Of a stretch of DNA of 47,268 bases, positions 32,619-47,268 are shown piece by piece; the stretch's first letter is position 1, and each line of letters opens with the position of its first letter. Under the pieces are notes generated by a model. That model saw only the letters and a list, made by a program, of their open reading frames with translations, made no database searches and had not been told where the DNA came from. The stretch lies in NCBI GenBank assembly GCA_948470905.1, contig CAOKQK010000018.1, positions 1 through 47,268 of the forward strand. The letters are read 5' to 3'. This stretch comes from an uncultured Lachnospiraceae bacterium. Its GTDB lineage: Bacteria > Bacillota > Clostridia > Lachnospirales > Lachnospiraceae. The position numbers were made by a program, and so were the translations under genes.

Positions 32619-33095
32619 CTACCTGGGGAGAGACTCCCCTTCCTGCAAGACATCCTCCTCCGGCATTGCCTCCGGGATCGGATCTGTCTCATGGAACAGT
32701 ATATTGCATATTTTATGGGTAAGCGGCTGAATATATGCCGTTACTTTCAAGCTCATATAGCCCAAAAAAATCACCAGCGGGTTCAAAACCCCCGTAATGG
32801 AAACCAAAATAAGTACAAAGGTGATCATCCCATATCGGAACAGATAGCCCCTCAGCATCAGTTTGGAGGCATCCGCCCCGCCTGCCATGGCGCGTTCCAG
32901 AGTACGGCACATATGTATGCTGGCGGCAAACGCGAAAGCAATCCCAAACCAGAGGCTGCCCGCATAGCGGATCTGATCCTCCACGATAAACACCCCTGCC
33001 ACCTGGCAGACAAGCCCAAAAAAGAGCATGCCAATGTGCATTTCCAGAAGCGTCCTGTTTTTATTTTTTAACGCTTTTATGATCATCTTCTTCAC
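32619..33095 (-). CDS. AtpI-like membrane protein of the ATP synthase operon
   Basis: This 158-residue protein has four predicted membrane helices (LLEMHIGMLFFGLVCQVAGV, LWFGIAFAFAASIHM, YGMITFVLILVSITGVLNPLVIFLG), the layout of ATP synthase subunit I-like proteins that assist c-ring assembly or cation supply. A GTG at 33095 or an ATG at 33086 could be the start, neither with a strong ribosome site. The coding region overlaps the preceding small gene by 35 bp. Confidence 0.75.
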   Translation of the reverse strand: MKKMIIKALKNKNRTLLEMHIGMLFFGLVCQVAGVFIVEDQIRYAGSLWFGIAFAFAASIHMCRTLERAMAGGADASKLMLRGYLFRYGMITFVLILVSITGVLNPLVIFLGYMSLKVTAYIQPLTHKICNILFHETDPIPEAMPEEDVLQEGESLPR

Positions 33096-33354
33096 TTTCA
33101 GCGGAAATCCCGCGCTCCCTGCCCTGTTCTTCCCTGCTGTACAGGCTTTTCGCCATGCGGTAAATGTTCTGCCCGCCAGCCACCGCGCCCATCATAAACA
33201 GCACGATCGTAACCCAGGACGTCCCAAACTTCCTGTCCAGCCACACGCCAAGAGCCGTCATAATGCAGATAGGCACTATCATATTCAATCCGAACTGCAT
33301 TACCATGGCAAGGGACTGCATCACAATCCGTCTGTCGTCATTGCGCCGTCTCAT
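33061..33354 (-). CDS. AtpZ/AtpI-family protein
   Basis: This 97-residue protein has two membrane helices, MVMQFGLNMIVPICIMTALGVWLD and a following WVTIVLFMMGAVAGGQNIYRM, the pattern of AtpZ-type proteins, which can supply Mg2+/Ca2+ or guide assembly of the synthase. A hydrophilic acidic tail ends the protein. It is the first gene of the atp operon, after a good promoter; its ribosome site is weak. Confidence 0.85.
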   Translation of the reverse strand: MRRRNDDRRIVMQSLAMVMQFGLNMIVPICIMTALGVWLDRKFGTSWVTIVLFMMGAVAGGQNIYRMAKSLYSREEQGRERGISAESEEDDHKSVKK

Positions 33355-33440
33355 CTTTCATTTTGTCCTCGCATTCACTGTGGCTGTACGCCAAAGCTTT
33401 TATGTACCTGCTCCAAGCCCGGCAAAAGCCAAACAGTTAT

Positions 33441-33469
33441 ATTATAACTATTTTTTTTGAAAATGTCTA
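33441..33469 (-). promoter_or_regulatory. Promoter of the atp operon
   Basis: Minus strand TAGACA (33469-33464), 17 bp, perfect TATAAT (33446-33441), followed by a ~85-nt leader. It lies 20 bp after the stop of the hydrolase gene. Confidence 0.75.
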
Positions 33470-33489
33470 GGCAGTACCATCCAAAAACA

Positions 33490-34665
33490 TTAATAAAAAA
33501 TGTGTCCCCCGATACTGATGCCCGTGAGCCCTGGAATAGGTGTCCGGAAGAACACACAATTGCCCACATTGGTCACTCCCGCCATCGCTTCGTCCGCCGC
33601 CCTGTAGCATTTGTCAGTGGCTTTATTCACGCTGAGAGCCAGCGCCAGACGCCCGCTCTTTACCGGCGAAAACTGTCCGCTCTGATAAATGACTCCCGAT
33701 ATGGTGTTGGGGAATTTGGGGCTTAAGACACGGTTCATCACAACGCTCCCCACCGCGACCTGTCCCTCGTAGGGCTCGCCGCCCGCCTCGCAGTAGATCA
33801 GATTCGCCAGCAGATATCTGTCATTGGGCTCAAAGACCACCTCCGAAATATCCCGCCACACTGCGTTTGCCGATGCCTTGGACAGGGCAATCTCCTCCGC
33901 CAGCTTCTTCTTCAGGACTTCCAGGTTTTCCTCCTGCTTCTTAAGTTCCGCCTCATATGCCCTGGCCTGTCTCTCCGCTTCCTCTATGTCGCCCTCATTC
34001 TGCCGGACAATCTTGGAGGTGTCGCTGATCAGCTGGTCCACCCTGCTCTTGTCCTCTTCCGCCCGGGCATACAGCCCCTCCAGATCTTCCCGCTCAGACT
34101 GAAGACGCGCCTCCTCCTGCTCTATGAGCATCCTGGTCTCCTGGTACTCCTGCATCTTCTGCCTGCTGTAGGAAACGGTCTTTTCTATATTATCCGCCTT
34201 GTTCAAAAGGTCGGAAAGGCTTGCCGCCTCGAACAGTGCGGACAGATATGTATCCTGCGGCATCTCATACATACACCGCACCATCGCCATCATGGACTCA
34301 CGCTGCCACTCCTCCGTCTCCTTCGCCTGGTCCAGCGCCTCCTGGGCCTGGGCAATCTCCAGCTCCTTCTGTCCGATCTGCTGCTCCAGGTTCGCCAGAT
34401 TCGCCGTCACTTCCATGAGCTGGCTGTTGAGGCTGTCCAATTCCTTCTTCAGCTTATTGGTCTTTTTTTCAAGGCTGTCTATATTGTCATGAGTCTTATC
34501 CAGCTGGTCCTCCAGCTTATCCATCTCATCCTTAGTATTGTCAATCTGCTGCTGTGTGGTAATAGCATAAGCAATGGCAGGCTCCAGGGAAGCATGCGCC
34601 GCCCCTGTCAAAATCGCTGCCGCCACAATAACTGCTGTCCTTTTCCACAGTCTGCGCTTTTTCAC
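33490..34665 (-). CDS. Secreted cell-wall hydrolase: coiled coil plus SleB-like domain
   Basis: This 391-residue protein starts at GTG and has an N-terminal export signal (RTAVIVAAAILTGAAHA). Residues about 35-275 form a long charged coiled coil like that of PcsB/CwlO-type hydrolases (DELEDQLDKTHDNIDSLEK-like heptads), which in relatives is controlled by FtsEX; that link is inference. Residues about 280-391 are a SleB/CwlJ-type hydrolase_2 domain: LLANLIYCEAGGEPYEGQVAV with the catalytic Glu, VMNRV, and VNKATDKCYRAADEAM. It would cut peptidoglycan glycan strands. Function may be vegetative rather than germination-specific. Confidence 0.9.
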   Translation of the reverse strand: MKKRRLWKRTAVIVAAAILTGAAHASLEPAIAYAITTQQQIDNTKDEMDKLEDQLDKTHDNIDSLEKKTNKLKKELDSLNSQLMEVTANLANLEQQIGQKELEIAQAQEALDQAKETEEWQRESMMAMVRCMYEMPQDTYLSALFEAASLSDLLNKADNIEKTVSYSRQKMQEYQETRMLIEQEEARLQSEREDLEGLYARAEEDKSRVDQLISDTSKIVRQNEGDIEEAERQARAYEAELKKQEENLEVLKKKLAEEIALSKASANAVWRDISEVVFEPNDRYLLANLIYCEAGGEPYEGQVAVGSVVMNRVLSPKFPNTISGVIYQSGQFSPVKSGRLALALSVNKATDKCYRAADEAMAGVTNVGNCVFFRTPIPGLTGISIGGHIFY

Positions 34666-34813
34666 AGTCTCTTACCTTCGCCTTTCCATAACAGAATGTT
34701 TATCCTAAATTATCCCTATATTTCACTTGTCCAAATTTCCATCTGCCGCATTGTCTTCAGTCAGTGATGCCGCCGCATCGCCTCCCTTATCCGCCCGTAT
34801 TTACGTATGCATA

Positions 34814-35329
34814 TCACACTTCCATATGGATCTGCCTGCCGGTCCTGGAATAAGGAATATATTCCACGCCTGCCGCCCGGAACATTTTCTTTGCAGCGCG
34901 GTTTGACGAGGTCCCGTCATATTTATCCCCATCATACACCACTGTCTTGATACCTGCCTGTATGATCGCCTTGGCACATTCGTTGCAGGGGAATAAAGAC
35001 ACATACAGCTTCGTGCCTTCCAGGGATCCCCCCCTGTAATTCAGTATGGCATTCAACTCTCCATGAGTCACAAAGGGATATTTCGTATCCAGATCCCCGC
35101 CCTCCCTCTCCCAGGGAAACTCCTCGTCGGAGCATCCGTTGGGAAAACCGTTGTAGCCCATGGACAATATTTTGTTGTCTCTGCTGACAATGCATGCCCC
35201 CACCTGGGTATTGGGATCCTTGGAGCGCATTCCCGAAAGATGCGCCACACCCATAAAGTACTCATCCCAGCTGATATAGTCCTTTCTTTTGCCAGTCGTT
35301 TTTCCCTCAGCCATCTTCATATCACTCAT
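34814..35329 (-). CDS. dCMP/cytidylate deaminase (ComEB-like)
   Basis: This 171-residue zinc deaminase has the His-X-Glu site (THGELNA, His89 and Glu91) and Cys115-Cys118 in FPCNECAK. MGYNGFPNGCSDEEFPW is characteristic of dCMP deaminases. It turns dCMP into dUMP for dTMP synthesis. AAAGGA lies 9 bases before the ATG. It sits between rpiB and the hydrolase on the same strand. Confidence 0.93.
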   Translation of the reverse strand: MSDMKMAEGKTTGKRKDYISWDEYFMGVAHLSGMRSKDPNTQVGACIVSRDNKILSMGYNGFPNGCSDEEFPWEREGGDLDTKYPFVTHGELNAILNYRGGSLEGTKLYVSLFPCNECAKAIIQAGIKTVVYDGDKYDGTSSNRAAKKMFRAAGVEYIPYSRTGRQIHMEV

Positions 35330-35398
35330 TATATTTTTCCTTTGTTTATTTTAAAAGATAAAAAATATTTTTGCAACACGTTTTGCCGCTGCTCCCAC

Positions 35399-35830
35399 TC
35401 AAAGCTTCTCGATCAGGCCGATCCGACGCTGATGACGCTCCTCTCCGGAAAATTCCGTCTCCAAAAAGGTTTCCACAATTTCCAGCGCAAGGTTTTCTCC
35501 CACTATGCCCGCTCCCAGAGCCAGCATATTGGCATCATTGTGCAGCCGGGTCAGCTTAGCGGAAAGCACATCCCCACAGAGGGCGCAGCGGATTCCCGGA
35601 ATCTTATTGGCAGAAATACTGATGCCGATGCCGGTGGTGCAGACGACAATGCCCTTATCGCACCTTCCCTCCGCAACCGCCTTAGCCGCCGCGTGCCCAA
35701 AGACAGGGTAATCACAGCTCTCCTGTCCGTTGCAGCCACAGTCCAGATAAGAGAGCCCCCTCTCCTCCAAATACTGAATGATCCTCTGCTTCAATGCATA
35801 ACCGCCATGGTCGCTGCCAATCGCTATCAT
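35399..35830 (-). CDS. rpiB: Ribose-5-phosphate isomerase B
   Basis: This 143-residue enzyme of the RpiB/LacAB family interconverts ribose-5-phosphate and ribulose-5-phosphate. GSDHGGYALK at the N-terminus, Cys64 in VVCTTGIGISISANK, and RLHNDANMLALG are the family motifs. An AGGAGG site precedes the ATG. Its leader carries a 22-bp sequence also found in the tandem repeat at the window end. Confidence 0.96.
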   Translation of the reverse strand: MIAIGSDHGGYALKQRIIQYLEERGLSYLDCGCNGQESCDYPVFGHAAAKAVAEGRCDKGIVVCTTGIGISISANKIPGIRCALCGDVLSAKLTRLHNDANMLALGAGIVGENLALEIVETFLETEFSGEERHQRRIGLIEKL

Positions 35831-35845
35831 AATAGATTCCTCCTA

Positions 35846-35867
35846 TTTTGAGTTCCGCCTCTGCACT
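35846..35867. repeat. 22-bp copy of the window-end tandem-repeat junction
   Basis: These 22 bases are the exact reverse complement of 47195-47216, which spans the junction between two units of the 109-bp tandem repeat. Here they lie just upstream of the rpiB ribosome site. A perfect 22-mer in two distant spots is beyond chance, so this is likely a remnant or a shared regulatory segment. Confidence 0.75.
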
Positions 35868-35884
35868 TCTGTGTCCCCAGTTTT

Positions 35885-36961
35885 TCATACCCTGACCACT
35901 CTGTGCCCAGCTGCCTTCAGCAGCCGGTTCATAATGGCCTGTCCCAGCCCCCTGTCGGGAAAGCTCTCCGAATATATTTTCGTTACTTTTTCGTTATCAA
36001 ACTCCCGGAGTGCGGCAAAAAGCCCCCTTGCAATACTCTCCTCGTCACTGCGGCTCCCCAGGCATTTGACCACATCTGCCCGGTAAGCCGCCGCCGTCTC
36101 GCTGGCGGCAATGACCCCTGTCTTACAGCCCCGGGCCCTGTCCGCAGCCGCCTGTTCATTCACGTATGCCGCCACCCGCTCCGGCTCCCCTTCCACAAGC
36201 ACCAGCTCTCCCTCCGGCGCATAGTGCCGGTATTTCATGCCCGGCGCCTTCGGAGCCTGCCCGCTGTCCGGTTTTATGATGGTGACATCTGTGTCAACTG
36301 CTCCAAGCACCTCCGTGAGCATCCTCTCCGTCACATATCCGGGACGCAGAATCTGCGGCCTGTCTTTTGTCAGGTCCACTGTCAGATCCACAATGGTGGA
36401 TTCCAGCCCGATCCCAACCGCCCCGCCGTCCACAATCATGTCCACGCGCCCGTCCATATCCTCCGCCACATGTCCCGCCTCGGTGGGGCTGGGCTTCCCG
36501 GAACGATTGGCGCTTGGCGCGGCGATATATCTGCCGCCGTACTCGATCAGCTTTCTTGCCACAGGATGGGACGGAAACCTGACCGCCACCGTGTCAAGCC
36601 CTCCGGTAGTCTCATAGGGAACCTGCGCCGACTTGGGCAGTATCATGGTCAACGGTCCCGGCCAAAAGGCGTCGGCAAGCTTCTCCGCCTCTTTTGGCAC
36701 TGCCCCCGCTATCTCATAAATATCCTCAAACCTGCAGATATGTATGATCAGCGGATTGTCGGAGGGACGCCCCTTCGCCTCATAAATCTTCCTGGCGGAT
36801 TCCCTGTTCAGCCCATCCCCACCCAGGCCATACACCGTCTCCGTGGGGAAAGCCACCAAGCCCCCCGCCATCAGGACCGCCCCCGCCCTGCGCAGCGCCG
36901 CATCCTCCCCGCATGACAGCCCAAGCTCCGGCTGCAATATCTTCACTATTTCTGTCTTCAT
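35885..36961 (-). CDS. L-threonylcarbamoyladenylate synthase (Sua5/TsaC)
   Basis: This 358-residue protein makes threonylcarbamoyl-AMP for the t6A37 modification of ANN-decoding tRNAs. The YrdC domain covers about 20-215: AGGLVAFPTETVYGLGGDGL, KGRPSDNPLIIHI, PGPLTMIL, RFPSHPVA, and APSANRSGKPSPT. A C-terminal Sua5 domain covers about 240-358 (KAPGMKYRHYAPEGELVLVEG). Length is normal for the Sua5 form. It lies 54 bp upstream of rpiB. The start is preceded by GGAGG at long spacing. Confidence 0.95.
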   Translation of the reverse strand: MKTEIVKILQPELGLSCGEDAALRRAGAVLMAGGLVAFPTETVYGLGGDGLNRESARKIYEAKGRPSDNPLIIHICRFEDIYEIAGAVPKEAEKLADAFWPGPLTMILPKSAQVPYETTGGLDTVAVRFPSHPVARKLIEYGGRYIAAPSANRSGKPSPTEAGHVAEDMDGRVDMIVDGGAVGIGLESTIVDLTVDLTKDRPQILRPGYVTERMLTEVLGAVDTDVTIIKPDSGQAPKAPGMKYRHYAPEGELVLVEGEPERVAAYVNEQAAADRARGCKTGVIAASETAAAYRADVVKCLGSRSDEESIARGLFAALREFDNEKVTKIYSESFPDRGLGQAIMNRLLKAAGHRVVRV

Positions 36962-37445
36962 CCCATTTCCGTCCTCCGCTGTGCTGCACGCATAACATGG
37001 CAGTGCGCGGCAGCACTGCCATTCTTCCGCAATTTACGGATATCTCTGTCAGCGCTGCCATTTCCACGGCACCATCCAATAAAGCGTTGCGCAAATAACG
37101 TAACAGTAACCATACGGCACCGCGAAGTCAAAATTGCGTCTCAAGGGCGATTTTAATCGCCCTGCGATTATTGCGAGACTTGCAGGCGCCAAAATGAGTT
37201 AAAAACTCATTTTGTATGCATCTACACAACAGCAAATCCAGCATCTGCCATCTGCATCAGCAACCCACCGTTATCAGCCAACAATGCTGCCGTGCCGCAA
37301 GGCTTATATTGTGCATATTCTATCACACTTTTACAAAAAGGAAAAGATGAACAGACAAAAATGATCATTAATTATTCAGACATGCATGATTCCCATATGT
37401 ACCGCCCCCCCGCCTCTGATAACCCGCAGCAGATCAGGCTTCCGC
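36962..37445. other. Structured gene-free region between Sua5 and the five-gene cluster
   Basis: No convincing gene is present. Three perfect hairpins are: ATGGCAGTGC/GCACTGCCAT (36997-37022), AGGGCGATT/AATCGCCCT (37144-37163, with an outer GTCTC/GAGAC pair), and CAAAATGAGTT/AACTCATTTTG (37190-37214). GCGTTGCGCAAATAAC near 37084 closely resembles the arms of the palindrome at 47-212, suggesting a decayed relative. The last hairpin could end transcription from the cluster on the minus strand. The rest, 37215-37445, shows nothing recognisable. Confidence 0.55.
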
Positions 37446-38504
37446 TTACTTTGACTTCCACTCCACATTTTTCCAGGACAGCCCGTCCTCATTTTCCACA
37501 GTCAGCCTGTACGTGGCGTCAGCCTCCTGATTCTGCAGCCCAAGCGTCAATGTCTTCCCAGGCTCCAGCTCTATACGTCCTATATTGTTCAAGTAGGCAT
37601 GACGGGTATTTTCCACTTCTATATAAAGTGTCACGTTTCTCGTCTTATCCTGATTGACCGTATAACTTCCCCGAAATGACACAATAGAAGCCCTTTTGAG
37701 CACACACTCCAGAGAGGCGCTTACCATATCCCCTCCCCTAAATGCATTGATACCATAGACTGTGTTCCGATAGATTACGGTGTCTGTCTCATATGCGCCT
37801 GCTGCCGCGGCGCCCGCCTGCGGCAGCGCCATACCTGGGCTGGCAGCTTTTTCCGGCAGCGGATCAGCGGTACAGGCGGACGGCAGCGCCACATCACCGG
37901 GAGTCAGAATGCTCTGCTCTGCGCCAAGGACAGCATAGGAGAAGGTGAGCTTATCGCGAAAGCCAAAGCCCCGGCACGCATCCGCAAGGGAAAAGCCTGC
38001 GATTGCCAGAGGATGGGATTTGCGGTACAGCGCACGGCGCCCGGCAAATACTTCGGAATCGGCGTCAAAAAAGGCAGTTTTCACCAGCACCATCTCCTCC
38101 GTGTCTCCAGTGGAAACCACATGACTCATGACAACCTCCAGCATATCCATCTGCTCCAGTGTTATGGTGGATGACGGATAGATTACGATCGTATCATCCC
38201 CCACCTTTTGGCTCAGCAGATTTTCCGGCAGGCTGAACCGGATCTGGTCAAAAAGCGATTTTGCAGAGAAGTCACCTTTCTCCTCCCCCAGCGGAAATAC
38301 CAGATACAGCATGGTAAGCCCCCGGATAGGTTCCGCACTCTCTATGGGCTTAAAGTCAAAGGAAGATGCCCCCTGGTCGTTGTGAAGTATCAGAGGCTCC
38401 TCTCCTGAATTTTCTATTTTCAGGACAAGATTTTGCTCTATATAAAAAGGTTCGTCCCGGCTGCTGATCAGGCTGTCAGGATAGAAATCTATATCAGGAT
38501 ACAT
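37446..38504 (-). CDS. Cluster protein E: beta-rich protein of unknown function
   Basis: This 352-residue protein has no signal or membrane segment. Residues about 20-180 read as a beta-sandwich with LVLKIENSGEEPLIL at the start and a pattern of alternating hydrophobics, resembling the first domain of the 403-residue neighbour. An Ala/Pro-rich linker at about 205-230 joins a second beta domain that ends ELEPGKTLTLGLQNQEADATYRLT in an Ig-like layout. I do not recognise a named family. It is the last gene of the five-gene cluster, 23 bp after the previous gene. Confidence 0.7.
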   Translation of the reverse strand: MYPDIDFYPDSLISSRDEPFYIEQNLVLKIENSGEEPLILHNDQGASSFDFKPIESAEPIRGLTMLYLVFPLGEEKGDFSAKSLFDQIRFSLPENLLSQKVGDDTIVIYPSSTITLEQMDMLEVVMSHVVSTGDTEEMVLVKTAFFDADSEVFAGRRALYRKSHPLAIAGFSLADACRGFGFRDKLTFSYAVLGAEQSILTPGDVALPSACTADPLPEKAASPGMALPQAGAAAAGAYETDTVIYRNTVYGINAFRGGDMVSASLECVLKRASIVSFRGSYTVNQDKTRNVTLYIEVENTRHAYLNNIGRIELEPGKTLTLGLQNQEADATYRLTVENEDGLSWKNVEWKSK

Positions 38505-38527
38505 GATACTGCCCCCCTTTATCTTTT

Positions 38528-39739
38528 TTATTTATCTGGAACATTGGCAAGATACAGAGTCCCCCTGCCGGCGGCACTCTCGTAGTTGAGCTGAAAGGCT
38601 GCAGGACTTTCGAGGCTGTAGACCTGTTCAAAAGTACCCTCAGGCAAAAGCGTATGCTTATGGTAAGCATTGTCCCGAACTACCAGCTCCAATGATCTGA
38701 GCCCCTTGGTCCTCCAGGTAAGAATCGTACATTGATGGGAGGGAAATGTCCACACATCAAGATAGCAGGCCGTGATCTCCGGACATGGCGGGACTGCCAG
38801 ATGACGTGTCAGCGTGTACAAGCCCCCGCACTTAAGCGATATCGTATTGATACCCGCCTGCACAACAGCGCTGCCAGTGCTTTCCGCATCCTGATAGATC
38901 CCGTCAAGGTTTAATTGAACCTTATCCGCAAAATGAACCTCCCAGGAAAGCTTTCTCCCTGCATCAATGGACAGCGCTGCGATCACAGGCGGGATAAGCT
39001 GTGCATAGGTATCACGATAGGAGTTGCCATGGGGATTATCAATATTGAGATAAAAATGTGTATTCTCCGTAAGCACCACATCAAACGCTTCGTCAGCGAA
39101 ACCTGCCGCGTTCATGATATTTTTGCCAAGAGGCAGGATATATCCGGCATCCGCATTCTCCGCCTTCCAATGCAGGGTGATCCGGCTGCCCGGGGCTCCC
39201 CCGCTGGGCGAAGCGTAAAAGCAGGGAATATTGGCATAGATACACTCCTTGTACAGGAACTGCGCAAGCCGCAGGCTCTCCAAAGCGGCTATCCCTGAAA
39301 AGGTCACAGCCAGCGTGACGAAGCCTTCGGGAGAATTGATGCATATATTTTCCCACGAAAAAGACAGGGCTTTTCCCGGGGGCAGGCAGACGGAAGCCGT
39401 ATCCTTTACAGCCATCCTCATTCGCACCTGGTTTTTCTTAATGGGATTGCGGATGACCTGGGACGGCTGAAAGCCCTCGGGGCCACGGATAACGCCCATG
39501 TCGGCATCTGCGGTTTTGGAGGAAAACAGGCATTTACTGCTCTCTCCCACAAGAAAAGAAAGGAGGAAGCAGGCGCCCAGGGAGCCGTCCAGGACAATAT
39601 CCGCCCCGGACACATTGATCAGCGAGAATTTCAGGCTGTCCACATGGCGCATGTCTTCCCTGCTGTCCTTTGTATTGGTATAAATTTTATTGCTGTGCAG
39701 CCTGAACAGAATGCCGCCTGCATCATCTGCCATATTCAT
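38528..39739 (-). CDS. Cluster protein D: multi-Ig-like protein of unknown function
   Basis: This 403-residue protein opens with a domain whose SLKFSLINVSGADIVL start and PGKALSFSWENI middle resemble those of the 352-residue protein. It then has about three repeated Ig-like beta domains with core patterns such as SRITLHWKAENADAGYIL, KLSWEVHFADKVQLNLDG and CTILTWRTKGLRSLEL. No export signal is present. Its start overlaps the end of the 1140-residue gene by four bases. Such layouts suit adhesion or assembly proteins, but the function is unknown. Confidence 0.7.
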   Translation of the reverse strand: MNMADDAGGILFRLHSNKIYTNTKDSREDMRHVDSLKFSLINVSGADIVLDGSLGACFLLSFLVGESSKCLFSSKTADADMGVIRGPEGFQPSQVIRNPIKKNQVRMRMAVKDTASVCLPPGKALSFSWENICINSPEGFVTLAVTFSGIAALESLRLAQFLYKECIYANIPCFYASPSGGAPGSRITLHWKAENADAGYILPLGKNIMNAAGFADEAFDVVLTENTHFYLNIDNPHGNSYRDTYAQLIPPVIAALSIDAGRKLSWEVHFADKVQLNLDGIYQDAESTGSAVVQAGINTISLKCGGLYTLTRHLAVPPCPEITACYLDVWTFPSHQCTILTWRTKGLRSLELVVRDNAYHKHTLLPEGTFEQVYSLESPAAFQLNYESAAGRGTLYLANVPDK

Positions 39740-42700
39740 TTGCGGGTTTCCTCCTTTTCCTTTTCTTTTATGACAATGTAACCCTCCCGCAGGGAAAGCC
39801 TTCCATCCGGGAAAACGGCGGTATTGTCCACAGGCAGCAGCCGGGTACTGCCGTTCTGCGACTCCGCCGTCCAGAAAAATTCCATGGAATTGGTGTGAGG
39901 AACAGGAATTTCTCTCAGGGTATCGCCGCAGAGGACGGGAGCGCTGGAATAACTGACAGATAATTCCTCAAGCCCCTGCGCCACAAGCTTTTGCGGAATG
40001 CACAGCGTCTTTACCGGCAGTACCCCTGTTACCAGGTTTGCCTCCGAATAAGGATCCATCAGCAGCGTGATACTCTTAGGCGGCGTCCGGGGCTTCAGGG
40101 ACAGGGATATCCGGTCCGAGAACACAATATAGCCGCTGTCAAAATGTTCTTCCGGATAACTGTGAAAGCATTGATAATCCTCATCCTCAAAAAATCCATA
40201 CACACCGTCCAGCGGATTATCCGGCTGTCCCACCTGGACCGGGAGAGAAAGCCCGCTGATATCCGTGCCGTGGGTCCTGTCCATCTCCCCGCCGTCGGGA
40301 TTGTGACGATAGCCTTCCGGCGTACCATAAAATGTAAATTGCAGGGAGGCGCGCACCACTGCAATAGGGCACCCGAAATAATCCATGATATGATGAGCAT
40401 GATCTCCCAGCCGTACCTGAATCTGCATTTGGTCGATCAGCCTGAGCAGGTCTCTCAGGGCATCCGGCCCCTTTGCCAACAGCCCCTGCAGAAAAGCTGC
40501 CATCTGCGGGTCCAGATCCGAAGGCGGAACAGGGGTACGGGGAAGCAGAGGCGCGTTTTCCATCCTGATGCTGGCGCCCGTCTGCGTCAGACAAATGCTG
40601 CAGCTGTGAACCCCCGAAGCGGTATATACCATAATGCTCTGGTTCAGGTAATTGGCTGCAAGATAGCCGCACACGGGGGACGCCTCCGGGACGGCAAGGC
40701 TCTCCGTGGGCTCCTTCCGGGAAGCGTCAGCGAGGAAAGCCGACAGCATAAGCGGCTGGGGCAGACGGGGAGGCAGCATGACACAGGAAACCGGATTGTT
40801 CTCACCCGGCGGCAGCATACCCTCCCCCGCATAGACAGAAGGACGGTCTATGTCCTGATAATATCCCATCCTGTCGATCAGGCGCAGTTTATGCAGCCGC
40901 AAAAACCCCGCCCTCACAGGGGAAAAGAGCTCATCAAAAACAGGTTGCTCTGCCAGCTCGGAAGGAAGAAGCTGCTGTATCTGCTCCAGGAGTTTTTTCT
41001 CTTGGGGATCCCGGCTGAAAAAGTCCATGGCAACAGAAGCATCCCGCATCAGCAGCTGGCTGTTGAAACCGCTCAGAGCCTGGGACAAATACTGCATTTC
41101 CCGCGCGCCTTCATACAGCAGATCCGATCCCGGAAGCTTTTGTACAGTGTCTTTCAGCCGCTTGGATGCCGTATCAGAGATAAAAAACCTCCCCTGTATA
41201 TAATAACCATTATCAGGATTGCAAATTTTCTTTTGATCACCGCAGAAGGTATGATCCCCCTGGGTCATGGTCCAGTTTTTCAGGGACGGGCCAGGACACA
41301 GGAGGTCCATGTCCGGATAATAGCAGATTTCCCATTCTACAATAAGGGGCGACCAGGAGGCATGATAAGAATTCAGCCCGCAGCTGTCCGGCTGGATGCC
41401 CTGGAAATGCTGATCTCTCTTGCTCTGCAGATCGGCAATGCGGGCAGCAAGCAGCGACAGCTCCTCCTCTCCCGGCGTGATCCCCGCCTTGCGGCAGGCA
41501 AGCCCTGCCAGATAAAAGGAACAGGAATTTGCCAGAAAGACCCCCTCCGCCACACATGCCCGGATCCCCTGCTGCAGCCCGGCGTCCAAGTGCGGGGGCA
41601 GAGTGATGGAAAGCGCCATGTCAGACGGAAGTAACTCCATACCCTCCGGAAGGGAATGAAACAGAGGAATGTCGCTCAGGCGCAGTGAGCTGATCAGCTG
41701 TCCCTCCGTCCGGCAGGGCAGCAGCGCGCCTTCCAAAGCGCCCGGAAAATCCTGCGGGGCAAGCTGGGCGATCAATACCACCGGATCCGCCGGGGAGTAA
41801 AAGCTGTCCACTGCTTCCTGCTGCAAAGGCAGCTGAAGGGCCAGCTGTTTCTCCTGTTTCTGAATCTCTGCCCCTGTACTGTACAGCGCCTGTGACAGAT
41901 TTTGGACTTCTGTCAGGGCATCCTGCATTTCTTTAAGATACATGGAACGATAATATTCCGTGTCAGAATAATAATGCAGATACCATTTTTCATACACCTG
42001 CCGCTGCTTCTGCACATACTCCCCATAAAGGAGCTGACATTTTCTCTGCTTTGCGCGCAGCTCCCGCAGACGCTCAAGAGACTGCCTGTCATATACCTCC
42101 TCCCCCTCTGACTCCTGGTCTGGTTTACTATCCCGTAAGCCGTCCATTGTCAGGGCAGCGGAATGGCAGAAACCAAGCTGCTTCATACGGTTGTCCGCCT
42201 TTACCGCCCCGGAGCTTTGATCCAGCTCCTTCCCGGTGCCTGCCAGATAATGATGCAGCAAATGCTCCAGATTTCCGTCCGGCGGCTGAAGGAGCGCTGC
42301 CAGAGCTTCCGCGGAAGTATTTCCTATGCCGACTTTGGGCAATACAACAATCTCTCCCGGTTCCGGATCGTCAGGGGTCCCGGTGGGATAGACCGTATCT
42401 TTTGTCTCCCATGGGATGTTTTCCACCATTCCATGACAAAAAGCTCGGTCAGGAAGGGGATCCCCCTGCACAGTGAGCCCCATCGTATCTTCCAGCTCCC
42501 GAAGGCTTTTTATCAGGGAACAGGGCTCCGGCTCCCCATGCTCCTCATACCAGCCGCATACCACATACGACAGTGTCACATGGGAAAGCTCCTCTACCCG
42601 GTCCACAAAGCCGAATACGTTATGACATGCGGGCGCATAGGCGGCAAAGAAAGGGCAGTTCTCCGAAAGGGCTGTCAATCGCAGATAAGAGTCCCCTGTG

Positions 42701-43158
42701 TGCGGATAATCCGCCGGAGGATCAGCGGCATCAAAAGAACGCCCCTGGAAGCGCCAGGGATGTTCTTCGTCAGGCCAGGGACAGGGGATGCTGGGACTGT
42801 CCTGGTTTTCAGGAGTTCTGTCCTTATACAGTGAATCGCTTTCCAGCAGAAAAGTCCTGCTCTGCAGCCTGTTGTCCGCATCTGTCCAGAGACGGGTGAC
42901 ACTGAAACGGTTGGGCGCAAGGCGGTAGGTGATCTCGCCGCTCTCCCCATCCTGGCTGCCCGATGTGAAACAGGCGGGCAGGCTCCAGTGAAGATAGACC
43001 CCCGGTTCCCTTGCGGACTCCTCAAAAGGGGGAGCCTCTGTATGTTCCGTCCTGTCCCCCAGTCTGCGCATATCATATGAAAAACCGGAAAAGTGTGTTT
43101 TGGGCGAGGGCTTTCCCACAGGGAGAGCCCTCACAGTCATTGGTATGTACAGGAACAT
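39736..43158 (-). CDS. Cluster protein C: 1140-residue protein with central coiled coil
   Basis: No signal peptide. The N-terminal third contains EPGVYLHWSLPACF and YRLAPNRFSVTRLW, then LLESDSL; I recall similar G.HLHWALP and PNRWLV.R patterns in large uncharacterised bacterial proteins, but cannot check. Residues about 355-440 are a charged coiled coil (LRELRAKQRKCQLLYGEYVQ and onward). The C-terminal part has VYGFFEDEDYQCFHSY and SITLLMDPYSEANLVTGVLPVK. No catalytic motif is evident. A GGAGGAG site precedes the ATG. The four-base overlap with the next gene implies coupled expression. Confidence 0.75.
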   Translation of the reverse strand: MFLYIPMTVRALPVGKPSPKTHFSGFSYDMRRLGDRTEHTEAPPFEESAREPGVYLHWSLPACFTSGSQDGESGEITYRLAPNRFSVTRLWTDADNRLQSRTFLLESDSLYKDRTPENQDSPSIPCPWPDEEHPWRFQGRSFDAADPPADYPHTGDSYLRLTALSENCPFFAAYAPACHNVFGFVDRVEELSHVTLSYVVCGWYEEHGEPEPCSLIKSLRELEDTMGLTVQGDPLPDRAFCHGMVENIPWETKDTVYPTGTPDDPEPGEIVVLPKVGIGNTSAEALAALLQPPDGNLEHLLHHYLAGTGKELDQSSGAVKADNRMKQLGFCHSAALTMDGLRDSKPDQESEGEEVYDRQSLERLRELRAKQRKCQLLYGEYVQKQRQVYEKWYLHYYSDTEYYRSMYLKEMQDALTEVQNLSQALYSTGAEIQKQEKQLALQLPLQQEAVDSFYSPADPVVLIAQLAPQDFPGALEGALLPCRTEGQLISSLRLSDIPLFHSLPEGMELLPSDMALSITLPPHLDAGLQQGIRACVAEGVFLANSCSFYLAGLACRKAGITPGEEELSLLAARIADLQSKRDQHFQGIQPDSCGLNSYHASWSPLIVEWEICYYPDMDLLCPGPSLKNWTMTQGDHTFCGDQKKICNPDNGYYIQGRFFISDTASKRLKDTVQKLPGSDLLYEGAREMQYLSQALSGFNSQLLMRDASVAMDFFSRDPQEKKLLEQIQQLLPSELAEQPVFDELFSPVRAGFLRLHKLRLIDRMGYYQDIDRPSVYAGEGMLPPGENNPVSCVMLPPRLPQPLMLSAFLADASRKEPTESLAVPEASPVCGYLAANYLNQSIMVYTASGVHSCSICLTQTGASIRMENAPLLPRTPVPPSDLDPQMAAFLQGLLAKGPDALRDLLRLIDQMQIQVRLGDHAHHIMDYFGCPIAVVRASLQFTFYGTPEGYRHNPDGGEMDRTHGTDISGLSLPVQVGQPDNPLDGVYGFFEDEDYQCFHSYPEEHFDSGYIVFSDRISLSLKPRTPPKSITLLMDPYSEANLVTGVLPVKTLCIPQKLVAQGLEELSVSYSSAPVLCGDTLREIPVPHTNSMEFFWTAESQNGSTRLLPVDNTAVFPDGRLSLREGYIVIKEKEKEETRK

Positions 43159-43181
43159 GATGTCAACTCCTCCTACAAATC

Positions 43182-43207
43182 AAAAACTCCCCGGCAAGCT
43201 GACGGGG
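43182..43207 (-). terminator. Weak terminator or attenuator within the cluster
   Basis: On the minus strand CCCCG (43207-43203) and CGGGG (43193-43189) form a short GC stem followed by AGTTTTTG, 25 bp before the 1140-residue gene. On the plus strand the same stem is followed by TTTT. It may partially reduce transcription into the downstream genes. Confidence 0.4.
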
Positions 43208-43217
43208 TTTTGACCCT

Positions 43218-43277
43218 CGCGGCATTCGTCAAGGTCCCGGAGAAGCAAACTTCTCGGACCTTGACTCATTGCCCGCG
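43218..43277. repeat. CGCGG...CCGCG palindrome between cluster genes
   Basis: CGCGGCATTCGTCAAGGTCC-CGGAGAAG (43218-43245) pairs with CTTCTC-GGACCTTGACTCATTGCCCGCG (43250-43277) with a few bulges around a 4-nt loop. Its ends, CCTCGCGGCA and CTCATTGCCCGCGG, are shared with the element at 16530-16575, while the inner part differs. Confidence 0.75.
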
Positions 43278-43284
43278 GAAATAA

Positions 43285-43965
43285 TCAGATGCTGCCGCCC
43301 GGTGACTGTAAAGTAATGTAGGCTTCTTCGCGATGTTCCTCATCTCCTTTACGGGTATAGACCACATGGCACTGCCAGCAGAAATCTCCCTCCCCGTTTT
43401 CACAGGGCGCATCGGTGATGGGATCCCCCAGCCGAAATACGGCGCCGCTCCTGCTGATGAATGTTTCCCCCTGGTATCGGACCTGTTTCCCCGTGAAATC
43501 CCTATAGCCAAACTCATACTCCGGCACTTCCAGGAGCTTACAGTCAGCCTTTGGATTCAGCGAAAACTCCAGCTTGTCAAATATGCCGGGCTGTTTTTCC
43601 CTGGAAGATACCCTACGGCTATAACGATAACTGTACTCCGGCAGAAAGAGATTTTGATATCCATAGTACTTGACAGGAAGCATATTTCCCAAAGGGGAAG
43701 GACAGCCTTCATAGGTAAAGCAGGCATTAAAAACCAAATCGCAGCCTTCCCGGGCACAGGAGGAAAAGCCTTCATATTTAATGGAACCTTCTGTAGCACT
43801 GTAGAGCTCCTCAACAATATTTTTCTGGGAAATCTGATTAAACAGACGGAGCCTGAGCTGAGGTGAAGAAACCGTCTCCAAGCCCTGCGGTTTTACCTCC
43901 GCATGGGCTGTCAGAATATTTCCCGACTGTATGGAAAAGGTTAAGACAACAGGATTTTCAGTCAT
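43285..43965 (-). CDS. Cluster protein B: cysteine-rich protein of unknown function
   Basis: This 226-residue protein has no signal or membrane segment and about eight cysteines, clustered as SSCAREGCDLVFNACFTYEGC and later CENGEGDFCWQC, which could bind zinc or form disulfides. The rest is mixed beta structure with many aromatic residues (YYGYQNLFLPEYSYRYSRR). I recognise no family. Its start overlaps the end of the 1007-residue gene by eight bases, so the two are probably co-translated. Confidence 0.7.
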   Translation of the reverse strand: MTENPVVLTFSIQSGNILTAHAEVKPQGLETVSSPQLRLRLFNQISQKNIVEELYSATEGSIKYEGFSSCAREGCDLVFNACFTYEGCPSPLGNMLPVKYYGYQNLFLPEYSYRYSRRVSSREKQPGIFDKLEFSLNPKADCKLLEVPEYEFGYRDFTGKQVRYQGETFISRSGAVFRLGDPITDAPCENGEGDFCWQCHVVYTRKGDEEHREEAYITLQSPGGSI

Positions 43966-46900
43966 ATAAATTTCCCCCTTTCTGTATTTGATCCAGCATC
44001 AGCGTATATTGAAACAGTTCCTCATAATTTCTTTTATCTTCTCCCCCGTCTGCCGGCACTTCCCTGCCTTCTGTCAGGCGTTTATAAACCTTGTCCGGCT
44101 CATAGGAATACTGGATATAAGAAAAGGAACCCTTCCAGCAGCTCAGGCATTCTTCCGCCGTCCCGTAGGAAGCCTCCAGAGCCTTGGTCAAAGGCTGCTC
44201 ATATTGGTCTGTCCAGGTCCGCTCGTCCAGATTTTTATTTTTATAGCGGTACAAATAGCCTGTGGCATCATGCAGTGCCCGGCAAATGTATACGCTGTTC
44301 ACAAAGGTCTTATAATTGGTATATGGCCCGATCAGCTCATAAGTCCCCGAAGGGTAGATATAGTCAAACTGTGTAAACGGCATATCCACACATCCTCCGG
44401 TCTGCTCTAAGCCTGCCGGATAATTTTTTGCCGGATCATAATCCTCATACTTGTAATCCCTGTAGGGAGGATATTTGTCTGCAATACTCTTTCTGGCATG
44501 GTCATATATATGCTTGGTCTTCTTGAGATTCTGCCAGCTGGAAAGCCCCGTATAATCCACATGGAATTTGGTGTCTATCAGAAGATGAAGGGCTGTACCG
44601 ATTCCCATGTTAAGCGCTGTCCGGGACACTGTGCCAGTCCCCGCCTCCTTCGACTTTAGGATGATATCGTCAAGCATCTTCTGTATGAATTCCGGTTTAT
44701 AACTTACCACTGCGGGATCCCCGACTTTGGCAGAATCCTCCTTCACAGGATAATGGAAAGGAACCAGGATATCCTCCTGAACACGGAAGGTAAATTCTGC
44801 CGGTTCTTCTCCGGCAGGAGCGGTAGGCGCCTTCCAGGTCAGGGTTTTTAATATTTCATCATGATCATACCATTTCGCCATCGCAGTAGGGATCAGCTTT
44901 ACATAGACGCAGTCATCGCCCCATACAGCCAGCTTCCTGGCGGTCAATTCTTCCGGGACTTCTTTTCCCGCCGGAATACCTCCATAAGTCGCATTGCTCT
45001 CCAGAAAAGCACAGAATTCTGCAATTTCCTGTGCCTCATCCTCCGTAAAAAGCCTGCTTAAGGCAAGGATGGTCTTCACGGCACAATAGTAGAACATCGC
45101 CTTCTGCCGCGCATCAGACTCCACAAAATCCGGAGTGCTCTGACGGTGGGCGAGGGTCCTGAGCTGGCGGATCAGAAGCCGTGCTCCTTCATCCGGTTTG
45201 GGCAGCTCGTATCTGGGCGGTGTGAAGGGACGTACGGCCTGTTGGTAATCGTGATCTCCCACCACAATGCCCTGAGCCACAATAAAGGTCGGTTCCTCAA
45301 ACACAAAATTGTATACCGTATCGTCATAGGGAAGTACCTCCAGAGACACGACCTGGCTGGCGCCAATCCTCTTGTCATCTGTTTGGAAGATCTGCAGGCT
45401 GTCACCCACATGTACGCTGGAAGCCGCAACCGGATTCCCGTCTGCCCGGCATAAAGTGTGATCCCCTGTCAGGAGAACCTCACTGCCGCAGGCAAGGGTC
45501 AGCCTGTAAATGGTCTCGGACGGGCCTGTGATCACATCACGGACCGGACGGTAATCACCTTCCCTGGTCAGCAGGCAATCCCCCTGGCGCACGTCACGGG
45601 CGGCGATGATCCCTTTCTTTTGCCAAAGCTGCACATCCCCGGCAAGACATCCCCACTGATAATACAGCCGGTGGATATACAGGTTCTTGTTATTTTCGCC
45701 CGACTGATATGAGACGGCATGATCCTTCTCATAGTTGATGATGATGGGAAGGGCACAATGTATCCCGTCATAAACCACATTGAAGCGGATATAGGCATAA
45801 AAGACAGCATAGGCACAGGCATCCCAGTACCCCTTGGGAATGGGGTAATCCAGATCCTTGGGCCATAAGTCATCCTTCCCGCTGGAGGCGCCGGGCTCTT
45901 TTGCTGTGGAAAAATGAATGTGGAGCTTATCCCGCAGTCCGGTCTGGGGATTGACCTCTGTGGTCACATATTTTTTGGTGAAGTCCTCCGCGTCCATCAT
46001 AAACGCCGATTCCCCGGTGGCTTCGGCAGCGCCGTCGGGACTGGTAAGGTTCATCACCGAGATCTGGGGCTGTTCTTCGCTGTCAAAATAACTGTTGTCA
46101 ATGGATTCAAAGCTGGCGCCTCCTTTCAATTCAACGCACAGGTGAATAGGGAGATGCACCGGGATCGCGCTCTTTCGCCCCGGATCATACACCCCATAGG
46201 AATAATCCGGAGTCTGCAGATTGCCGTCACGGCTGTAGGAAATGCAGATGCTGTCCTTCAGGCTGTCACGTTTGGAAGAATTGCGGTTGCACGGATGCGA
46301 CAGTGTGATATTTTTTACCTTCTCATCAACATTGGCAACCACATGAGATGCCACCACGTAATATGCTTCCGTATTTCTTCCCAAGGCGGAACAGTTTGCA
46401 ACAGACGTGAACAGGGAAGTAAACTGATAGGTATGCCCTAATGCAATCTGGGACAAAGTCATGTGCATATTGGGCTTTACACTGTACTCACCAAATTCAT
46501 TTGGAGTGAGCTCATAGGAATTATCGGCGACAGGCTTTCCTCCCATCTGTACATCATAAATCTTTACACGGGAAGTCACTGCACAGGTATTCTGCGGGGT
46601 ATTCGATGAACGGAGCATGCAGGATACATTGGCCATAAGAGAGGACTTTCCATCAGACGCTGCATTTCCGGACGCAGTAATGGCCGGGCCTTCTATCCGA
46701 TGATAATCCCGCAGATGCAGTACAGGCAACGTATCTTCTGACAACGCAATGCCCGGGGGCTCCAAAAATTCTTCTCTCGGCCGGGGCATTGGGGATCCGG
46801 CTGTCCGCTGCTCCTGCAGCTGATGATACAGATCCGGCGCCTGCTCTCTCACACGCTCCTCTCCGCCCAGGTTCTCCACAAAAAACTGATAATGCGCAGG

Positions 46901-46981
46901 ATTTGCAAAATCAAGCTTTACGCAGCCCCGGTTAGCGCGGGCTTCGGCGATCATTGACTGTTCCATCTCATAAAGTTTCAT
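43958..46981 (-). CDS. Cluster protein A: 1007-residue protein with internal Hint domain
   Basis: No signal peptide. Residues 1 to about 440 are mostly beta-rich with CVKLDFANPAHYQFFVENLGG near the start; no named family is recognised. Residues 445-577 form a Hint (intein/hedgehog-type) domain: Cys445 in WGCLAGDVQLW, LLTREG, the LLTGDHTLC block with its T..H pair, and YNFVFEEPTFIVAQGIVV. The domain ends GDHD, lacking the His-Asn that inteins need for splicing. Residues about 790-830 contain GTALHLLIDTKFHVDYTGL, like the metal-binding H..D..H helix of phospholipase C or DUF6765 proteins; this is tentative. The C-terminal part is aromatic and acidic. It starts after AAGGAGGTC, 5 bases before the ATG, and leads the five-gene cluster. 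Confidence 0.75.
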   Translation of the reverse strand: MKLYEMEQSMIAEARANRGCVKLDFANPAHYQFFVENLGGEERVREQAPDLYHQLQEQRTAGSPMPRPREEFLEPPGIALSEDTLPVLHLRDYHRIEGPAITASGNAASDGKSSLMANVSCMLRSSNTPQNTCAVTSRVKIYDVQMGGKPVADNSYELTPNEFGEYSVKPNMHMTLSQIALGHTYQFTSLFTSVANCSALGRNTEAYYVVASHVVANVDEKVKNITLSHPCNRNSSKRDSLKDSICISYSRDGNLQTPDYSYGVYDPGRKSAIPVHLPIHLCVELKGGASFESIDNSYFDSEEQPQISVMNLTSPDGAAEATGESAFMMDAEDFTKKYVTTEVNPQTGLRDKLHIHFSTAKEPGASSGKDDLWPKDLDYPIPKGYWDACAYAVFYAYIRFNVVYDGIHCALPIIINYEKDHAVSYQSGENNKNLYIHRLYYQWGCLAGDVQLWQKKGIIAARDVRQGDCLLTREGDYRPVRDVITGPSETIYRLTLACGSEVLLTGDHTLCRADGNPVAASSVHVGDSLQIFQTDDKRIGASQVVSLEVLPYDDTVYNFVFEEPTFIVAQGIVVGDHDYQQAVRPFTPPRYELPKPDEGARLLIRQLRTLAHRQSTPDFVESDARQKAMFYYCAVKTILALSRLFTEDEAQEIAEFCAFLESNATYGGIPAGKEVPEELTARKLAVWGDDCVYVKLIPTAMAKWYDHDEILKTLTWKAPTAPAGEEPAEFTFRVQEDILVPFHYPVKEDSAKVGDPAVVSYKPEFIQKMLDDIILKSKEAGTGTVSRTALNMGIGTALHLLIDTKFHVDYTGLSSWQNLKKTKHIYDHARKSIADKYPPYRDYKYEDYDPAKNYPAGLEQTGGCVDMPFTQFDYIYPSGTYELIGPYTNYKTFVNSVYICRALHDATGYLYRYKNKNLDERTWTDQYEQPLTKALEASYGTAEECLSCWKGSFSYIQYSYEPDKVYKRLTEGREVPADGGEDKRNYEELFQYTLMLDQIQKGGNLYD

Positions 46982-47035
46982 GCATGACCTCCTTTTTTTA
47001 ATTTATGTTGCCAAAACACATACTACTATGCTATA

Positions 47036-47063
47036 ATTATAACACGTAATTGTAGGATTGCAA
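47036..47063 (-). promoter_or_regulatory. Promoter of the five-gene cluster, with nearby inverted repeat
   Basis: Minus strand TTGCAA (47063-47058), 16 bp, perfect TATAAT (47041-47036), with a ~50-nt leader. AGGATTG (47054-47060) and CAATCCT (about 47085-47091) form an inverted pair flanking the -35, possibly an operator. Confidence 0.65.
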
Positions 47064-47096: not shown

Positions 47097-47268
47097 GGAA
47101 CTGTAAAACAGCCTCGCAGCGGAAACGACCCGGAAGAAAATTACAGCTGCGTCCTATGCAGATGAAATTTTCTTCCAGACAAGGGGGGCGTTGCAGTGCA
47201 GAGGCGGAACTCAAAAACAGCCTCGCAGCGGAAACGACCCGGAAGAAAATTACAGCTGCGTCCTATGC
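47097..47268. repeat. Tandem repeat with 109-bp period, cut by the window end
   Basis: A 55-bp segment (47105-47159) recurs exactly at 47214-47268, and the matching extends upstream to 47097 and 47206 apart from two mismatches. The period is 109 bp, so one full unit and the first part of a second are present. Each unit holds GGAAGAAAATT ... AATTTTCTTCC, a hairpin with a further inner CAGCTGC/GCAGATG pairing. No gene was seen. The window stops exactly within a copy, as assemblies do at repeats. Confidence 0.8.

Follow-up and report, generated by a model that had tools for sequence, protein, structure and literature searches.

The five minus-strand genes at positions 37446 to 46981 of contig CAOKQK010000018.1, from an uncultured Lachnospiraceae bacterium (assembly GCA_948470905.1), are real, complete and operon-like, and form the left half of a two-armed locus that is truncated by the contig end. 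The stretch analysed, referred to as the window, comprises 47268 nucleotides and covers contig C18, one of 157 contigs of a draft genome, from end to end. The locus contains a recurring set of four proteins, namely A (a member of DUF6603), B, C and D, and of the five window proteins only P0003 (D) belongs to this conserved core. A stand-alone five-gene system, as suggested by an earlier prediction made from the sequence alone (the original prediction), was rejected because core genes are absent from the window and present on contig C112 of the same genome. Tentatively, the gene content is best read as encoding an uncharacterised, horizontally moved complex that delivers enzymes. That four proteins recur as a set across phyla, without a match to any family whose function is known, suggests a machine that has yet to be studied and, if enzymes are indeed delivered, a new weapon or communication device present in gut-type Clostridia and in soil, marine and cyanobacterial genomes alike.

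The left arm and its continuation on contig C112

P0001 (also called G; 43958 to 46981, 1007 aa) consists of an N-terminal region (residues 1-444), a Hint domain starting at Cys445 (with His508 and Gly575-Asp576) and a DUF6765 tail. It is followed by P0002 (43285 to 43965, 226 aa), for which no family match was obtained, by P0003 (39736 to 43158, 1140 aa), which has a central coiled-coil stretch at about residues 350-480, and by the accessory proteins P0004 (38528 to 39739, 403 aa) and P0005 (37446 to 38504, 352 aa, E class). All five are present on the minus strand with the lengths and coordinates predicted, as are the two proposed overlaps at 43958-43965 (8 bp) and 39736-39739 (4 bp). The remaining intergenic gaps measure 126 and 23 bp, and a purine-rich ribosome-binding site precedes all five starts.

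The window end at 47268 is an assembly break and not a biological border, since the window is all of contig C18. The first 55 bases of contig C112 are identical to window positions 47162-47216, which are enclosed by two 63-bp copies (47097-47159 and 47206-47268) of a tandem repeat spanning 47097 to 47268. Reading rightward, C112 encodes a small protein of 194 aa (start 70), then protein A, whose length is 904-910 aa according to the start chosen, and finally a 737-aa B/C fusion (start 3362). A clearly belongs to DUF6603 (PF20248), with a score of 444.4 bits against a cut-off of 27; the relatives at L014 and L013 reach 423.8 and 486.5 bits. It is the single DUF6603 gene of the genome.

The 55-base overlap alone does not prove the link between the two contigs, because the core of the repeat has three copies in the genome (window, C112 and C15:3177-3222). 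In two relatives the arms are adjacent, the assembly of a congener is broken at the same spot between them, and the only match to A in this genome is situated at the start of C112. It is thus very improbable that the link is wrong and that the five genes have no second arm here. The gap between C18 and C112 may amount to one or a few 109-bp repeat units. A 30-base piece of C112 (34-63) recurs at window 35838-35867.

In Clostridium transplantifaecale (L027) the locus is intact, with the P0005, P0004, D, P0002 and G counterparts running leftward and the small protein, A and B/C rightward, separated by 164 bp; its P0002 and G genes likewise overlap by 8 bp. E. tayi (L028) shows the same two-armed layout with separate B and C. 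In the congener (L119) the arms lie on two contigs, of which C13 begins 19 bases before the P0001 homologue, while the 8212-base DUF6603 contig stops 20 bases before the small gene. The congener homologues of P0001, D, P0004 and P0005 share 43-56% identity with the window proteins. For P0001, identity is 29% in L027, 26% in L028 and 43% in L119. No match to the open reading frames (ORFs) of window 33000-37500 was found within 14 kb in the congener, and its locus therefore seems to be placed elsewhere.

Recurrence in the same order, proposed as a test of a common system, was thus observed for P0001, P0003, P0004 and P0005 in all three relatives, with P0002 as the exception. P0002 matches a 225-aa gene of C. 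transplantifaecale weakly (E=0.002), corresponds by position to a 242-aa gene in E. tayi and has no counterpart in the congener. The proposal of a co-functioning multi-protein assembly agrees with a co-inherited set, although the window holds only half of it and a single core protein, with A and B/C located on C112.

A promoter upstream of the five genes had also been proposed, and a minus-strand site was found at 47036 to 47063 (10/12). A single such site is weak evidence, because the region contains 14 promoter-like sites against 9.0 +/- 3.2 in shuffled sequences. A plus-strand site suited to the right arm (47008 to 47037, 11/12) scores better. The two sites overlap in opposite directions, share a -10 region and are correctly placed for a two-armed locus. 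The surroundings were described as housekeeping genes and repeat-rich DNA. The right side is instead the contig end with its tandem repeat of about 109 bp, and the left-flank genes are presumably housekeeping, to judge from their sequences. A tRNA scan returned no genes, hence there is no tRNA border. Left of P0005, window 37120-37230 is non-coding and contains short inverted repeats recognised by eye.

Two further inverted repeats, also seen by eye, lie in the gap between P0002 and P0003 (43159-43284), the second being followed by TTTTTG. These could attenuate transcription ahead of P0003. The congener lacks both P0002 and this gap. On C112, B/C is followed by two adjacent genes of 565 and 658 aa (L024:6642-10312), a pair which is assumed to carry the label DUF262. 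The 565-aa gene matches the defence models Orf5, HEC-06 and SspE, mostly within its first ~100 residues, and the 658-aa gene matches no defence model.

Recurrence and spread of the A-B-C-D core

A scan of genome contigs with the DUF6603 core, using one exact peptide pattern, yielded 180 relatives, of which the best 80 were kept. Strains with the locus include Chitinophaga filiformis DSM 527 and Herpetosiphon aurantiacus DSM 785. Co-occurrence was counted on six-frame translations; picking the longest ORF errs in GC-rich genomes. A, B, C and D are all present at 72 of the 80 loci, which stem from nine named phyla and KSB1. The order is A-B-C-D in 57 cases and D..A-B-C in 13, while D is divergent in two (L027 and L028). 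Six of the eight exceptions lie on contigs of <=13.5 kb, and the other two (L050 and L064, Microcystis) have no D in the fetched flank. At L030, the matches to A and D are split across several ORFs, possibly reflecting a broken copy. Herpetosiphon aurantiacus has two D..A-B-C loci (L051 and L081) with A genes about 28 kb apart.

The distribution is patchy. Of 299 genomes of the family, the four that have A are also the only four that have D (G000, G158, G225 and G268, the own genome included), a coincidence expected by chance at ~3e-9. In the own genus, A was found in two of 101 genomes, and D in four of 344 genomes of the order and one of 348 of the phylum sample, the own genome being counted each time. 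Among 31 relatives, P0001 was detected in one, namely the own genome. Relatives of P0003 are present on eight plasmid records of Streptomyces, Embleya and Paenibacillus, and most P0003 neighbourhoods inspected have a DUF6603 gene (A) and B/C genes adjoining. In Paenibacillus sonchi (L007), a P0003 relative occurs without A nearby; D is split there into 976 and 118 aa, possibly a broken copy.

The distances between loci are correlated among A, B, C and D (Mantel test, r 0.81-0.92), with none of 2000 permutations as high. This test covered 66 of the 80 loci, 14 being left out owing to a missing family or coverage below 60%. The A-core tree, comprising 79 loci and the own gene after one locus was dropped (80 rows), requires 21 label changes for nine named phyla (minimum 8, shuffled mean 45.9). 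The corresponding values are 16, 8 and 39.2 for the D tree, which was built from 67 rows with FastTree and drew long-branch warnings. Cross-phylum groups are common to both trees, for example Vulcanimicrobiota L091 with Bacteroidota L095/L103, starred in both. Lachnospiraceae L090 groups with Sphingomonas L047 in the A tree and falls in the same wider group of the D tree on a long branch. From these sequences, the pattern is read as movement of the whole locus in one piece, and it may also arise from paralogy or bin contamination.

The Hint protein and its partners

Compared alone with the Pfam Hint model, P0001 gives a weak match below the cut-offs (E=0.073). The predicted internal Hint domain is nevertheless borne out, as a profile of residues 1-605 with ten relatives matches solved inteins (best 2.5e-12), and the Cys and His typical of the Hint/intein superfamily are kept. 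Cys445, His508, Gly575 and Asp576 are invariant in all 11 alignment rows. A Gly-Asp end was also found in 12 of 12 Hint domains of a pattern-picked set (12 of 20 G-class ORFs); the pattern required the Cys, so that its count is built in and the 11-row alignment is the fairer measure. Hint domains usually end in His-Asn, and splicing inteins possess a C-terminal His-Asn and a +1 nucleophile. P0001 was rejected as a splicing intein given the Gly-Asp end in 11 of 11 rows. Since Cys445 and His508 are kept and the end is Gly-Asp, the domain could plausibly cleave at Gly444-Cys445 but not splice. P0001 relatives were found at 16 of the 80 loci (flanks <=10 kb), and within the tree these loci are confined to Bacillota.

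The DUF6765 (PF20551) match at residues 637-955 scores 32.7 bits (cut-off 26.6) and is the sole one in the genome. The tail is conserved in L027 and L028; an H-x3-D-x3-H motif (P0001 ~799-807) and the His of PFH (~743) are invariant in all three proteins. The former motif is known from zinc phospholipase C-like proteins and serves as a lead, not as a test. A profile of the tail matched no PDB sequence, and the tail searched singly gave three matches, all at 0.59 or worse. Among the Hint proteins seen complete, a long tail after the Hint domain is present only in the window, L027, L028 and the congener.

P0001 resembles polymorphic toxins with PT-HINT (PF07591) in that a Hint domain with intact Cys and His precedes a C-terminal part. 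It differs from them in its Gly-Asp end, and no immunity gene was recognised.

In A, the core profile shows strand-like amphipathicity in 72% of windows, compared with 38% for D and 31% for B. The part preceding the core ranges from 197 to 2444 residues, and Pfam returned no family for 33 such N-terminal parts. Against PDB sequences, the A profile gave a single match at 0.33 and the B-centred profile none. D has a mostly helix-like pattern, and its profile matched only helical chains (best 1.9e-4), including in the stretch predicted as a coiled coil. Apart from DUF6603, none of the scans made linked the core to a family whose function is known. By a crude hydrophobicity measure, signal-like N-termini are few (A 3/90, B 0/83, C 0/81, D 5/77) and, in line with the predicted lack of signal peptides, absent from P0001-P0005.

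The original prediction called P0002 Cys-rich, which holds only mildly (8 Cys in 226 residues). P0004 and P0005 are indeed distantly alike (hhalign, 84% over 193 columns); their description as Ig-like was not upheld, as neither has a Pfam match. P0005 also aligns by hhalign with proteins after D elsewhere, at 98% (those of L041/L066) and 96%. In Chitinophaga (L058), a kelch protein occupies the position after D.

Neighbouring genes and candidate functions

Pfam scans covered 85 of 107 upstream/middle ORFs and 75 of 82 downstream ORFs (domains at E<=0.001; the best 25 of 33 and the best 25 of 43 families were listed, respectively). Upstream/middle ORFs contain laminin-G (10), metallo-beta-lactamase (MBL; 9), lipase-3 (6), tail-collar (5), endo/exonuclease-phosphatase (5) and TNT (1) domains, and downstream ORFs match kelch (8) and Hint (7) models. 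An MBL-like neighbour is present at 21 of the 80 loci according to two local profiles. For one of these two families, Up4, the likeness to MBL comes solely from hhalign (96% over 87 columns) and a weak Pfam match, and its L042 member matched no Pfam family. Among these neighbours, the MBL and nuclease-like enzymes are similar to defence MBLs, ComEC and MnuA, with all NCBIfam matches below cut-off. In single-protein scans, lipase-3 adjoins L103; endo/exonuclease-phosphatase domains adjoin L048, L076 (slightly below cut-off) and L037. The neighbour at L039 is a haloacid-dehalogenase gene. Neighbours at other loci also carry tail-collar and Gp10_C domains. At L044 (2574-5186), a laminin-G lectin domain and a phage tail collar/Gp10 C-terminal domain are combined in one protein.

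The delivery reading is favoured because the gene content is organised much as in delivery systems: enzymes and binding domains vary, the chassis is constant and seldom has signal-like N-termini, and transfer is patchy. The window genes would constitute the left arm of a bidirectional accessory locus whose set is built on A, B, C (often fused as B/C) and D. Lacking signal peptides, the proteins would be assembled in the cytoplasm into a single complex, which might be released via lysis or another route and bring an enzyme, variable between loci, to a target cell. A scaffold or shell may be formed by D, long and helical in pattern with its coiled coil, and by A, with its amphipathic beta pattern. 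The proteins after D (P0004 and P0005; elsewhere kelch, laminin-G and tail-collar proteins) would bind the target. The Hint domain of P0001 is predicted to cut at Gly444-Cys445, separating the N-terminal module from the enzyme-like DUF6765 tail. The earlier suggestion of a toxin, adhesin or cargo system is plausible in this light. A more far-reaching proposal, put forward with greater reserve, is that A-B-C-D is the chassis of an undescribed class of protein-delivery particles, horizontally spread over at least nine phyla, with swappable enzymes and binding proteins and one Hint-matured cargo in Clostridia. The gene order, the bidirectional locus and the predicted self-cleavage site offer experimental handles.

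Several observations weigh against delivery. Besides the lack of a recognised immunity gene, the complex has no known secretion route, and a Hint protein is found at only the 16 loci mentioned above. Flank content is mixed, with the clearly unrelated RecA, SpoVAD, epimerase and MatE among the listed families, and five of ten upstream neighbours scanned singly (L060, L077, L062, L096 and L052) have no family. Nearest neighbours agree between the core proteins in only 38-42 of 66 loci, which may be due to recombination or noise. Furthermore, one tail His of L027 and L028 is Phe in the window, so that the DUF6765 tail may be inactive.

A surface or matrix assembly on the producing cell is a less probable explanation. 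It would serve adhesion or polymer handling, with lectin, kelch and tail-collar domains binding glycans and lipases or phosphodiesterases being digestive. The binding domains adjoining the core fit such a role, as does a host range that, by record titles, comprises gut-type Clostridia, soil and aquatic bacteria; the laminin-G part of the L044 neighbour resembles the fimbrial TafC model far below cut-off (28 vs 410 bits). The scarcity of signal-like N-termini in A, B, C and D argues against it, and wall anchoring is suggested only by single LysM and choline-binding matches among the families listed. An intracellular system for defence or stress, with the complex as sensor of phage or damage and the MBL or nuclease-like neighbour as executor, is rather unlikely. 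P0001, P0003 and the A and B/C proteins of L027 matched no PADLOC family at E<=0.01, on which grounds a known anti-phage system was rejected, and lectin, kelch, tail-collar and TNT domains better suit an outward-facing role. Such a system would be in keeping with the patchy inter-phylum spread, the resemblance of the 565-aa C112 gene to defence models, and that of the L055 MBL neighbour to the LmuA, RT-MBL, Avs1a and 6A-MBL models (well under cut-off for those from NCBIfam).

It is quite unlikely that the locus encodes a known class of toxin complex or of injection machine derived from phage tails. Tc toxin complexes and extracellular contractile injection systems resemble the present set in their large signal-less proteins and separate binding and enzyme parts; no marker family of either was found in core or window proteins, and both were rejected. 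In agreement with the original prediction, Pfam and PHROGs scans of P0001-P0005 revealed no contractile injection gene, that is, no sheath, tube, baseplate or AAA ATPase family. PHROGs matches of these five proteins were weak (a tail protein at E=0.35 for P0004; A, B and C were not run). Likewise, no TcA, TcB or Rhs-containing TcC Pfam family was matched by P0001-P0005 or by A, B, C, E1 and G of L014. What speaks for such a machine is that neighbours elsewhere include tail-collar domains, Gp10_C domains (C-terminal part of a baseplate protein) and one Peptidase_S74 match; together with a single AAA_14 match, these are the only contractile-type domains among the matches listed, and receptor-type domains aside, no sheath, tube, baseplate, Tc or Rhs family appears there. 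A phage origin was rejected, with no relative of A in viral contigs and none of P0003 in phages (A was not searched in phages).

In the open-licence PubMed Central papers searched (bioRxiv preprints not covered), DUF6603, DUF6765, PF20248, PF20551 and the presumed accession IPR046538 are unmentioned, and searches with domain words returned no description of the locus. DUF6603 is a Pfam entry of unknown function, to which the B-C-D partners are added here. The Umbrella toxin particles of Streptomyces combine variable toxins with a coiled-coil protein and with lectin proteins of the beta-propeller type; ALF repeats, trypsin-like domains and a twin-arginine translocation (TAT) signal are features of the Umb proteins (PMC11062931). 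The present locus is similarly a multi-gene set with a coiled-coil protein and lectin-type and variable enzyme genes. An Umbrella toxin was rejected, as no ALF, trypsin-like UmbA or UmbB family is among the listed matches; the TAT signal was not tested specifically. At L009, a trypsin-like gene is annotated ~11 kb past D, with other genes between.

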